From Arcobacter sp. (GTDB lineage Bacteria > Campylobacterota > Campylobacteria > Campylobacterales > Arcobacteraceae): 33,848 nucleotides of DNA. Location of the stretch: positions 1-33,848 of the forward strand of contig PKUJ01000040.1 in NCBI GenBank assembly GCA_002869565.1, written 5' to 3'. Every line of letters starts with the position of its first letter. The first letter of the stretch is position 1. Below, one piece after another: positions 20,704 through 23,957 of the stretch. The notes under the pieces were generated by a model. It saw only the letters and a list, made by a program, of their open reading frames with translations. It was not told the origin of the DNA and made no database searches. A program made the translations under genes and the position numbers.

Positions 20704-21258
20704 ATGCCAAAAGTTTTAATTATTATTTCAACTGGGTTTGAAGAAATTGAAGCAATTTCAATTATAGATGTTTTAAGACGAGCAGAAATTGAAGTTGTAA
20801 TTGCAACTATAAATGATATTTTAACGGTAGGTGCACACGGAATTGTAATTCAGGCAAATCAATATCTAAAAGATATTGATAGTTCAATCTTTGACATGGT
20901 AGTTCTTCCAGGAGGAGCAGTTAATACAGAAAATTTAGCTGCAAGTTCTTCAGTAAAAGAAGTTCTTAAAAAAATGAAAAAAGATAATAAATATATTGGA
21001 GCAATATGTGCCGCACCATATGCACTTCATAAAGCAGAAGTATTAAATAAAAACTATACTTGTTACCCAAGTTTTGAGAAAAAGATTAGAGATGATGGTT
21101 ACCAAAGTGATAACCAAGAAGTGATTATAGATGAAAAAGTAATAACATCAAGAGGACCAGGAACAGCAATGACATTTGCTCTAGAACTAATAAAACTTTT
21201 AAAAGATGAGGCTACTTATCAAAATGTAAAATCTGGACTTTTAGTGAAAAATAATTAA
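20704..21258 (+). CDS. DJ-1/PfpI family protein
   Basis: A 184-residue flavodoxin-like protein of the DJ-1/YajL/ThiJ superfamily. The nucleophile elbow is GAICAAPYAL with C102, and the supporting glutamate is E16 in GFEEIEA, matching human DJ-1 C106/E18. VVLPGGAVNTENL (66-78) and the C-terminal SRGPGTAMTFALELI are family signatures. Proteins of this group have been reported as oxidative-stress chaperones or glyoxalase/deglycases; which activity applies cannot be read from sequence. The ATG has AGGA upstream. The 3' end overlaps the convergent glycosyltransferase by 4 nt. Confidence 0.9.
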   Translation: MPKVLIIISTGFEEIEAISIIDVLRRAEIEVVIATINDILTVGAHGIVIQANQYLKDIDSSIFDMVVLPGGAVNTENLAASSSVKEVLKKMKKDNKYIGAICAAPYALHKAEVLNKNYTCYPSFEKKIRDDGYQSDNQEVIIDEKVITSRGPGTAMTFALELIKLLKDEATYQNVKSGLLVKNN

Positions 21259-22397
21259 AACTCAGAAATAATCTTTTCATTCTTCTCCCAAAAATCTAAA
21301 AAACTATGAGAGATAGATTTATCTCTCATATATTCATAAGCCATTTTACTTTTTTCATAATATACCTCATCTTTAAAAGACAACTCCTTTATAGCTTTTT
21401 TCATATCTTTAGAAGAATTCATGCCTATAATATATCCAAAATCTTCATTTACAAATGTTTTTGGACCTCCTTTATTTGTTACTATTACGGGAAGTCCTGA
21501 CGACATTGCTTCTAGAACAACTTGTCCTAAAGTATCAGTAGTTGAAGGAAAAATAAAACAATCACTTGAAGCATAAAGTTTTGATAAATCTTCTTTTTGT
21601 TTTCTTCCAAGAAGTTTTATATTTGAATTTTTTTTATCTTCAAAACCTATATCAAACTCTACATCACCAACTAATATTAATTCACAGTTTATAAAATTTG
21701 CTTTTCTCCAATATCTAATCAATTTATCTACATTCTTTTCAACAGAAACTCTTCCCACATACAATACTTTAAAACTATTTCTATTTATTTCATAAGTATC
21801 CCAGATTGAATCGTCCTTAAAAGATTTATCAAAACTTGTAATATTTATTCCAGCTTTTAATATATGAATATTTTCTTTTTGAAATCCTAATTGTTCTTCA
21901 ATTATTTGTATATACTCTTTTGATCTTGAAAAAATTGCTTTATAGCCACTATAAAAAAACTTTAAAAACTTTATAGTTAAATATTTTACAAACTTACTTT
22001 TTGTATTTTTATAAAGATATGAAGGGAAATCAGTATGATAAATTCCGACAACAGGAATGCTCAATAGTTTTGCACTTATTAAAGCACAAAGACCAACCGT
22101 GCCGGGAGTAGAGATATGCAACAAATCAGGATTTAATTCTTTGATTTTAGATTTTATTTTAAAAAAATTTGGAAATACTAAATCTAAAGAGTTATAAAAA
22201 GGCATTTTTCTTGCAAAAATTGGCTTCAAATTATAAATATTTGGGATATCTTCATAATGATTTTTTTTAGTAGAGCTTATTACAGAAAAATCTTTTTCAT
22301 ATTTTATTGCCTCTTTTGCAATATCTTGGATAAACCTAGAAACTCCATTAACATCATAAACAGTGTCACTTACTAAACAAATTTTTATATCTTTCAT
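21255..22397 (-). CDS. GT4-type glycosyltransferase, Agt/SQD2-like
   Basis: A GT-B fold transferase related to SQD2/SqdX and Agt lipid glycosyltransferases. Seen: an N-terminal acceptor loop with DVNGVSRFIQDIAKE (near 15-29), YHTDFPSYL (from about 120), KVLYVGRVSVEKNVD (about 210-224), and the donor motif TDTLGQVVLEAMSSGLP, whose D288 replaces the first Glu of the EX7E motif (second Glu E296). I start at the ATG at 22397, giving 380 residues. The frame is open to 22523, but that extension overlaps the divergent gene. No Shine-Dalgarno precedes the ATG. A TATACT hexamer ends 6 nt before it, which would fit a leaderless transcript. The neighbouring PlcP-like gene suggests a diacylglycerol acceptor, by inference. 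Confidence 0.82.
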   Translation of the reverse strand: MKDIKICLVSDTVYDVNGVSRFIQDIAKEAIKYEKDFSVISSTKKNHYEDIPNIYNLKPIFARKMPFYNSLDLVFPNFFKIKSKIKELNPDLLHISTPGTVGLCALISAKLLSIPVVGIYHTDFPSYLYKNTKSKFVKYLTIKFLKFFYSGYKAIFSRSKEYIQIIEEQLGFQKENIHILKAGINITSFDKSFKDDSIWDTYEINRNSFKVLYVGRVSVEKNVDKLIRYWRKANFINCELILVGDVEFDIGFEDKKNSNIKLLGRKQKEDLSKLYASSDCFIFPSTTDTLGQVVLEAMSSGLPVIVTNKGGPKTFVNEDFGYIIGMNSSKDMKKAIKELSFKDEVYYEKSKMAYEYMRDKSISHSFLDFWEKNEKIISEF

Positions 22398-22435
22398 TTT
22401 TAAAGTATAGAAAAAATAAATTACTACTTTGTTAC

Positions 22436-22464
22436 ATGTCATTAATTTGTAATCATCATGTAAT
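22436..22464 (+). promoter_or_regulatory. Candidate PhoB box (three direct heptamers)
   Basis: Three heptamers, ATGTCAT (22436-22442), TTGTAAT (22447-22453) and ATGTAAT (22458-22464), are each separated by 4 nt, so they recur at exactly 11 bp. This is the architecture of the enterobacterial PHO box (CTGTCAT direct repeats). A TAAAAT hexamer at 22464-22469 begins 10 nt after the second heptamer, the spacing seen in PhoB-activated promoters, and lies 7 nt before the PlcP-like ATG. The site is shared with the divergent glycosyltransferase gene. Confidence 0.6.
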
Positions 22465-22476
22465 AAAATTCTTTTC

Positions 22477-23214
22477 ATGAAATATAAAAGCATCTTTATC
22501 TCGGACATACATTTGGGTACCAAATATTCAAATACACAACAACTACTTGATTTTCTTAAACAAACAGATAGTGAAAATCTATATTTAGTAGGTGATATAA
22601 TCGATGGTTGGGCAATAAAACGAAAATTTGTATGGCCACAAACTCACTCTGACGTTATTCAGAAGATTTTGAAAAAAGCTAGAAAAGGCTGTAATGTAAC
22701 TTTTATTACTGGTAACCATGATGAATTTTTAAGACCTTTTGTTCCTCTTATTTTAGGTAACTCTTTAGACATTAAAAATGAAGTTGAATATACTGCTTTA
22801 AATGGGAAAAACTATTTAATCACACATGGAGATTTTTTTGATTCTATCACCATGACAAAAAGATGGCTAGCTATTTTAGGAGATTATGGATATGACCTTC
22901 TTTTAAATATTAATCAAAAATTAAATTACATAAGAACAAAACTTAGAATAAAATCAAAATGGTCTTTATCAAAATATATAAAAGACAATGTAAAAACTTC
23001 AGTTTCATTTATTACTGACTTTGAAGCAACCCTAGCTATACATGCGAAACATAAAGGATATGATGGCATAATATGTGGACATATTCATAAAGCAGAGATG
23101 AGAATTGTAGATTCAATTGAATATTTAAATTGCGGTGATTGGGTAGAATCTTGTACGGCAATTGTAGAAACTAAAGATGGAGAATTCAAAATTATTAATT
23201 GGCTTGATAGATGA
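22477..23214 (+). CDS. PlcP/LpxH-like metallophosphoesterase
   Basis: A 245-residue calcineurin-like phosphoesterase. Metal ligands: D10 and H12 (SDIHLG), D40 (VGDIIDGW), N80-H81 (GNHDEF), H117 (THGDFFD) and H202/H204 (CGHIH). The distinctive blocks WPQTHSDVIQKIL, GNHDEFLRPF and NCGDWVESCTA match, from memory, the Sinorhizobium PlcP group, phospholipases C that release diacylglycerol from phospholipids and are often annotated as UDP-2,3-diacylglucosamine diphosphatase. It could instead be a LpxH-type lipid A enzyme. I favour PlcP because of the divergent glycosyltransferase, the downstream lipase and the candidate PhoB box. The start is the conserved MKYKSIFISD. No Shine-Dalgarno precedes it. 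It overlaps the patatin gene by 4 nt. Confidence 0.8.
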   Translation: MKYKSIFISDIHLGTKYSNTQQLLDFLKQTDSENLYLVGDIIDGWAIKRKFVWPQTHSDVIQKILKKARKGCNVTFITGNHDEFLRPFVPLILGNSLDIKNEVEYTALNGKNYLITHGDFFDSITMTKRWLAILGDYGYDLLLNINQKLNYIRTKLRIKSKWSLSKYIKDNVKTSVSFITDFEATLAIHAKHKGYDGIICGHIHKAEMRIVDSIEYLNCGDWVESCTAIVETKDGEFKIINWLDR

Positions 23215-23957
23215 ATTTAGCATTAGTATTAAGTGGAGGGGCAGCAAGAGGTGCCTTTCATTTAGGGATATTAGCTTATCTTGAAGAAAAAGCTATAGAA
23301 ATAAATGAATACTCAGGAAGTTCTATTGGCTCAATTATTAGCTGTTCCCATGCAAGTGGCATTGAAGCAAGAAAAATACTAGAAATTTTTAAAAGTGATG
23401 ATATAAAAAAAGTTTTAAAATTTAACTATTTTAAAAAAGGTCTCATAAGAATTGACAAAGAACACCAACTTCTAAATACTCTGCTTCCTATAAAAAACCT
23501 TGAAGATTTACCTAAAAAAGTTACAATCAATGCTTATGATACAAATACAAAAAAGATTTTGTATTTTGATAAAGGGGATACTCATATGTTATGTATGGGT
23601 TCAAGTGCACTTATTCCAATTTTTAGACCAATACATTATGAAGGACATAATTTAATCGATGGTGGGCTTTTTGACAATATGCCAATCAAACCATTAGAAA
23701 ATAAAGATTTTGATATATTCACAATTGATTTAATGCCCAGATCAAGTCAAGAAGAAAAAAGAAGAGGATTTAATCCTTTGAAACCTTTAAAGAAAAAACT
23801 TTTTAAAACACGTTTTAATAATGGAACTTACTCAATACATAACTCAGATGTATATATTACACACCCAGAACTACGCCATATAAATATGTTTACATTTAAA
23901 GGACTACAAGAAAGCTTTGATTTAGGATATAAAGAAGCACCTAAATATTTTTCTTAA
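23211..23957 (+). CDS. Patatin-like phospholipase
   Basis: A 248-residue Ser/Asp-dyad lipid acyl hydrolase. The N-terminus LVLSGGAARGAFHLG is the oxyanion-hole loop, the nucleophile is S38 in the GSSIG elbow (GxSxG), and the catalytic aspartate is D150 in LIDGGLFDN (DGG). No signal peptide or membrane helix, so cytoplasmic or peripheral. The C-terminal third is Lys/Arg-rich. The ATGA overlap with the PlcP-like gene means the two are co-translated, which argues that it acts on related lipids, for example releasing fatty acids during membrane turnover. Substrate unknown. Confidence 0.85.
   Translation: MNLALVLSGGAARGAFHLGILAYLEEKAIEINEYSGSSIGSIISCSHASGIEARKILEIFKSDDIKKVLKFNYFKKGLIRIDKEHQLLNTLLPIKNLEDLPKKVTINAYDTNTKKILYFDKGDTHMLCMGSSALIPIFRPIHYEGHNLIDGGLFDNMPIKPLENKDFDIFTIDLMPRSSQEEKRRGFNPLKPLKKKLFKTRFNNGTYSIHNSDVYITHPELRHINMFTFKGLQESFDLGYKEAPKYFS

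Follow-up and report, generated by a model that had tools for sequence, protein, structure and literature searches.

A stretch of Arcobacter sp. DNA of 33,848 nucleotides (the window, which is contig 38 in a 3.49-Mb genome with a completeness of 99.7%) raises the question of whether three adjoining genes allow the bacterium to exchange its membrane phospholipids for phosphate-free lipids when phosphate is scarce. The genes code for a glycosyltransferase (GT), a phosphoesterase (PE) and a patatin-like protein (PAT), and the original prediction, made from the letters of the window, had described them as a phosphate-regulated lipid-remodelling module. Our analysis makes it likely that the window contains the central part of a Pho-controlled phosphate-starvation lipid-remodelling regulon, extended by ornithine lipid. 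The relevant features are as follows:

21255..22397, minus strand: GT, a GT4 glycosyltransferase and candidate diacylglycerol glycosyltransferase of 380 amino acids (aa), start placed at the ATG at 22397
22398..22476, no strand: the 79-bp divergent promoter stretch between GT and PE, containing the three top sites of the pstS-box matrix in the window
22418..22436, minus strand: box facing GT, a Pho-box-like 11-bp direct repeat that begins 39 nt from the GT ATG, score 12.9
22437..22455, plus strand: box facing PE, a Pho-box-like direct repeat that begins 40 nt from the PE ATG, score 12.3
22448..22466, plus strand: second PE-facing Pho-box-like repeat, overlapping the first and adding a third 11-bp unit, score 14.7
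22477..23214, plus strand: PE, a predicted PlcP-like phospholipase C (metallophosphoesterase) of 245 aa
23211..23957, plus strand: PAT, a predicted patatin-like acyl hydrolase of 248 aa

The predicted layout of three contiguous genes was confirmed in both coordinates and families. The PE stop and the PAT start share the ATGA at 23211-23214, and GT, on the minus strand, has its stop at 21255. The TTG at 22523, listed as the GT start, is unlikely because GT would then run into PE; the ATG at 22397 is the most likely start. Pfam assigned PE to Metallophos (56.4 bits, cut-off 21.5), PAT to Patatin (90.5 bits, cut-off 27.7) and GT to Glycos_transf_1 (96.0 bits, cut-off 26.4). We followed the arrangement in 60 genomes, the own genome among them, to which we refer as relatives, and in a second sample of 46 named Campylobacterota PE loci, the closest of which by sequence include Arcobacter, Poseidonibacter and Malaciobacter. 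The cluster is common across Campylobacterota. The arrangement is beyond chance, being conserved in relatives: PAT lies directly 3' of PE in 35 of the 46 named loci and in 25 of the 31 PE-positive relatives, while GT orthologues (at least 46% identity), present in 16 of the 60 genomes, adjoin PE in all 16.

Whether PE belongs with PlcP or with LpxH is central to any reading of the locus. For comparison, we used a P. aeruginosa gene labelled as LpxH which, together with an overlapping glycosyltransferase gene (locus L041), we take from gene order to represent the homologues of PA3219 (PlcP) and PA3218 (Agt1). PE shares 46% identity with this presumed PlcP homologue (242 bits, 239 aa aligned), but only 30% with E. 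coli LpxH (36 bits, 118 aa aligned) and 22% with the LpxH-like protein of its own genome, in keeping with the PlcP-like character that had been predicted. PA3219 itself shares 46% identity with S. meliloti PlcP, according to a passage of PMC8528852. The metallophosphoesterase site of PE is complete (SDIHLG, GDIID, GNHDEF, HGD and GHIH, plus NCGDWVE). All three blocks named in the original prediction (WPQTHSD, GNHDEFLRPF and NCGDWVESCTA) are indeed in PE; as marks of the PlcP group, they fared unequally. The N-x-GDW block occurs in 41/41 PE/PlcP rows of the alignment and in 0/8 LpxH rows, and GNHDE in 37/41 and 0/8, respectively, whereas W-x-Q-x-HSD was found in only 20/41 PE/PlcP rows and hence is not general.

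In the corresponding tree, a long branch (9.3 changes per column, support 100/100) sets seven LpxH-like rows apart from those of PE/PlcP; the E. coli LpxH branch, with a length of 10, is too long to place. A separate gene of 231 aa in the same genome codes for the LpxH-like protein and is presumably the actual LpxH. Such a gene is present in 58/60 genomes, and PE (at least 55% identity) in 31/60. PE was thus not found to lie within LpxH in a genome devoid of another LpxH, the outcome that the original prediction had named as contrary to it. We conclude that PE is PlcP-like, as far as scores and motifs can tell, and is not the sole LpxH candidate of its genome. In a plasmid collection, PE matched 32 records, and 24 of them bear the label UDP-2,3-diacylglucosamine diphosphatase, which suggests that PlcP-like genes are often annotated as LpxH in public records.

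Phosphate control, also part of the original prediction, is supported by pstS-type boxes in the divergent promoter that face both genes. In many relatives, TGT-N-AT-N5-TGTAA-Y-C repeats with an 11-bp spacing lie 5' of PE. A three-unit pattern derived from the window itself matched the window exactly and two further sites with one mismatch; since these three sites compare with two for the reversed control, the pattern was dropped in favour of an independent pstS-based matrix. This 19-bp matrix was built from 30 pstS loci with 28 boxes found (effective number about 6; L078 and L080 without a box, that of L065 misplaced), and its training set included the own pstS and zero plcP promoters. When both strands of the window were scanned (67,660 positions), the top three sites all fell inside the 79-bp promoter, in the order 22448 plus, 22418 minus and 22437 plus, and the next best site of the window scored 9.0. 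The chance rate at such scores is about 2-11 per Mb per strand. The 11-bp direct repeats that mark a Pho regulon are held in common with pstS.

The same holds beyond the window. The 160 nt 5' of PE contain one of the top three sites of the locus, on either strand, in 36/46 named loci, while the 160 nt 5' of the LpxH-like gene, taken as a control, contain a top-three site in 0/20 loci. A site at -39 or -40 from PE is common among relatives. Among 28 loci, the own included and L037 and L038 excluded, the minus-facing score is higher in those with a divergent GT (16 loci) than in those without (12 loci; p 9e-6, in a comparison that ignores kinship), and the plus-facing score is alike in both (p 0.14). 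Genome-wide, exact matches to the pstS-type pattern number two, upstream of pstS and of a PHO4-family transporter gene; only these carry weight, because with two mismatches allowed the 37 sites barely exceed the 31 of the reversed control. The exact box at the PHO4-family transporter gene (L084; C21:148062-148078 of the own genome) is on the opposite strand directly 5' of the gene and might mediate repression at low phosphate. A locus that combines PE and GT with a GDPD-family (PF03009) gene has another strong pstS-type site (L156, site 7879, 20.5 bits).

The link to ornithine lipid goes beyond the original prediction. In a search with PF13444, many relatives proved to encode a protein of about 570 aa. 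The own representative (L249:1885-3594) reaches 832 bits on the OlsF equivalog model NF052615, and that of L163 reaches 783.8 bits, both above the cut-off of 620. Such a protein is encoded in 30 of the 31 PE-positive genomes, the remaining one (G044) having a fragment about 1.1 kb 3' of PE, and in 7 of the 29 PE-negative genomes (G013, G021, G023, G030, G049, G056 and G058). We fetched 38 olsF loci; 37 encode a full-length protein related to the own OlsF at 43-100% identity, and for L279 a wrong open reading frame had been taken. One of the top three sites of the locus lies within the 200 nt 5' of olsF in 30/37 loci, ranking first in 25; the split is 27/30 in PE-positive and 3/7 in PE-negative genomes. 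In five of the 46 named loci (L160, L162, L163, L178 and L182), PE is no more than 4 kb from olsF; L178 shows the order regulator-PE-GT-olsF, and in L163 olsF and PE-PAT diverge. L279 (G044:C25), a draft with masked stretches and broken frames, has a PE frame, an apparent patatin remnant and then olsF. Betaine lipid was considered as another diacylglycerol sink and rejected, the BtaA family (PF11899) being found in 0/60 genomes.

In the own genome, the pst genes, named by our reading, form an operon in the order pstS, an EAL/GGDEF-type gene, pstC, pstA, pstB, phoU, a gene for a small membrane protein and, last, the genes of a response regulator and a histidine kinase. The EAL/GGDEF-type gene between pstS and pstC occupies L051:8649-10406 (contig C29), and an additional Pho-box-like site with two mismatches to the pattern is found 5' of pstC (C29:38635-38651). 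Upstream of pstS, on the minus strand (L051:11674-12519), there is a gene for a 281-aa protein whose C-terminal half carries a repeated RRKDD motif. An earlier pstS candidate, L046, was discarded, as we read it as a tungstate-type binding protein. Elsewhere, phosphate genes adjoin PE itself. In G016, which belongs to another genus of the same family, PE-PAT is followed by one gene and then by pstS-C-A-B-phoU-regulator-kinase; in L158, pstC-pstA-pstB-phoU precedes PE; in L163, PE-PAT is convergent with phoU-pstB-pstA-pstC. A response regulator lies directly 5' of PE in L178 and L184 and about 2.8 kb upstream in L160, and the end of a PHO4-type gene is about 3.7 kb from PE in L182. A tblastn search that made no use of the matrix detected such phosphate genes (pst/phoU, regulator, PHO4) near PE in 6/46 named loci.

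The glycosyltransferase gene of L042, which has plcR and a phospholipase C gene next to it, is presumed to be the PA0842 (Agt2) homologue and served as a reference for GT. In the tree, a 99/100 split separates the Agt1-type rows from a side that contains Agt2 and GT, but also E. coli WaaG and WaaB. The donor motifs GRVAXEKN and FPSXTDTFG and the His-Asp dyad are given for GTcp, a relative of Agt, in a passage of PMC8231724; GT carries motifs of this GTcp/Agt type as GRVSVEKN, FPSTTDTLG (F to L) and the Asp, with the His of YHTDF taken as partner. The match is weak, since such motifs are common in GT4 according to the same passage. In four genomes, a second GT, 38-39% identical, is found at another place and lacks a box, and a Thiodictyon plasmid displays the same divergent GT-PlcP layout. 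GT might be regarded as a candidate diacylglycerol glycosyltransferase, the product being assigned by analogy.

PAT has the residues expected of a patatin-like acyl hydrolase: Ser38 and Asp150 are conserved in 37/37 aligned sequences, as are two glycines of the oxyanion loop, the third being kept in 36/37. No leader was obvious by sequence or hydropathy, and PAT is therefore probably in the same compartment as PE. The 46 named loci comprise 31 with PAT only, 4 with PAT and GT, 7 with GT only and 4 with neither, although some contigs end nearby. In type strains of Poseidonibacter and Malaciobacter, plcP-patatin has no adjoining GT. The idea that GT and patatin are mutually exclusive outlets was given up: Fisher's test yielded p 0.0014, but a tree-controlled test, with only two pairs on supported branches, gave no support. 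We favour a role in which PAT would hydrolyse the acyl chains of diacylglycerol or lyso-lipids, freeing fatty acids for OlsF.

The reading that we prefer, a Pho-controlled lipid-remodelling regulon, builds on the gene order, the families, the catalytic residues, the boxes common to pstS and olsF and, in some genomes, the pst, regulator or olsF neighbours; regulator binding, the enzyme activities, the sugar donor and the PAT substrate are proposed. As phosphate falls, the PhoR/PhoB-like pair whose genes close the pst operon would bind the 11-bp direct repeats. One divergent promoter would then be switched on, driving plcP-patatin rightward and GT leftward, and pstS and olsF, the latter at another place in the genome, would be induced as well. 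PlcP would remove the phosphate headgroup from membrane phospholipids to leave diacylglycerol, GT would add a sugar to give a phosphate-free glycolipid, and OlsF would produce ornithine lipid. PAT probably deacylates surplus diacylglycerol or lyso-lipids, which would make their fatty acids available again, for example for ornithine lipid. It is tempting to go further and to suppose that PlcP and the co-translated patatin form a two-step stripping unit (headgroup, then acyl chains) feeding OlsF, in which case the swap could run glycolipid-free and GT would be an optional second outlet for diacylglycerol; we hold this elaboration only tentatively and consider it rather unlikely.

Several other explanations deserve attention. 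PE could be the LpxH of the organism, acting in lipid A synthesis. LpxH models are indeed its top NCBIfam matches (56.4 and 47.1 bits), its relatives bear the LpxH-type label in public records, and on TIGR01854 its 47.1 bits exceed the 39.1 bits of the 231-aa LpxH-like protein, which also stays under the cut-off of 190.35; the genome search with this model that yielded the LpxH-like gene omitted PE. Both PE scores, however, are far under the cut-offs of 134 and 190.35, so that membership in LpxH is not indicated, and these scores, the N-x-GDW block missing from all eight LpxH rows, and the separate, far more widespread LpxH-like gene led us to rule the assignment out, the contrast in upstream boxes (36/46 against 0/20) pointing the same way; we give it next to no probability. 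Hardly more credible is that the genes scavenge phosphate from external lipids while the own lipids are not replaced. Such a role would be compatible with Pho control and a phospholipase C activity by themselves, but no export signal is obvious on PE or PAT, and the boxes that also face GT and precede olsF point to the synthesis of substitute lipids.

The role of GT leaves more room. GT might make a glycosyl-phosphatidylglycerol, as GpgS does, or an envelope glycan, and be co-regulated with PE for that reason. Its best NCBIfam model is the GpgS equivalog NF053787 (131.9 bits), GpgS being a GlcNAc-phosphatidylglycerol synthase according to PMC12713373, and its identity to the Agt homologues is low. 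The cut-off of this model is 480, though, and the Agt2 homologue scores about the same (135.2 bits), so the model cannot separate the two activities. A lipid that retains phosphate makes little sense under a Pho box, and the pairing with PE in every genome with a GT orthologue, as well as the donor motifs, argues against this alternative, which we judge improbable. PAT could also be a positional hitch-hiker, for instance a housekeeping lysophospholipase outside the lipid swap. Its NCBIfam matches are weak, far under cut-off and to several patatins of differing roles, and orthologues are kept without PE in some genomes. Against this stand its regular place behind PE, its invariant catalytic Ser and Asp, and the lack of an obvious leader, by which it probably shares the compartment of PE. 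We regard the hitch-hiker explanation as the less probable one, yet worth keeping in mind.

A number of observations weigh against the lipid-remodelling regulon that we prefer. The regulator of the pst operon has PhoB as its top match with 170.6 bits, under the cut-off of 296.2. The upstream stretch of PE lies outside the top three sites in 10/46 named loci, and that of olsF in 7/37. Kinship is ignored in the PE-olsF and PE-PAT association counts, as it is in the comparison of minus-facing boxes. At E 1e-40, 15 of the 31 PE-positive genomes have no GT orthologue. GT is only 25.5% identical to the Agt2 homologue and 22.2% to the Agt1 homologue, and in the tree the long branches of E. coli WaaG and WaaB come between GT and Agt2, with a Thiodictyon row on the same side; GT is thus not clearly a member of the Agt clade, and its predicted SQD2-Agt-like nature is supported only in part, by the donor motifs. 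Two genomes that lack PE, G013 and G030, retain PAT orthologues with 70% and 52% identity, respectively, and the patatin of G013 (L138, G013:C2:10701-11441) has no nearby Pho box; G013 is a member of the genus without strong GT or PE matches. Because orthologues persist without PE, PAT is a frequent and not an obligatory partner of PE. The proposal that PAT is a new component of the system thus holds in so far as it is a regular neighbour of PE, and its part in the swap stays conjectural.

If our reading is correct, Campylobacterota that bear the cluster (Arcobacter relatives, Sulfurovum, Sulfurospirillum, Sulfurimonas and others) should replace phospholipids by glycolipids and ornithine lipids under phosphate shortage, and the regulon can be named: the box, the pst operon, plcP-patatin, GT and olsF. 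Acyl recycling via the co-translated patatin would be a possible new enzyme step. The supposition that such a system had not been described in relatives of Arcobacter needs correcting: in 2016, agt homologues of Arcobacter, Sulfurovum and Thiovulum had been put forward as candidates in a passage of PMC5193443. The phospholipid swap in Campylobacterota is a point that this source, in the passages concerned, leaves open. Among the matches listed from the open-licence literature, none mentions PlcP or this patatin for Campylobacterota in its title or at the beginning of its abstract.

Finally, we would like to place the locus among known systems. On the ornithine-lipid side, the title of a paper on Vibrio cholerae OlsF speaks of phosphate-controlled ornithine lipid synthesis, and Acinetobacter olsB is similar in that an ornithine-lipid synthase is under a Pho box (PMC11828411); the words plcP and patatin gave no match in that paper. 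The Agt and OlsF response of Desulfovibrio alaskensis G20 resembles the one proposed here, since glycolipid and ornithine lipid both take the place of phospholipid under phosphate limitation; in contrast to our locus, the passages of PMC5193443 mention patatin zero times and contain neither PlcP nor a Campylobacterota Pho box. PlcP-Agt remodelling is presented in passages of PMC8528852 for P. aeruginosa (PA3219/PA3218/PA0842) and of PMC4796936 for Pelagibacter, Phaeobacter and Erythrobacter, and, as far as these passages go, the likeness consists of a PlcP-type phospholipase adjoining a glycosyltransferase with Pho boxes upstream. Unlike in those systems, the genes here, from the phylum Campylobacterota, are divergent and not in one operon, GT is distant from Agt, and plcP is followed by a patatin gene. 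Overall, what is new in comparison with PlcP-Agt remodelling is not the type of system; it is the divergent promoter, the distant GT, the co-translated patatin and the Pho box held in common with olsF.

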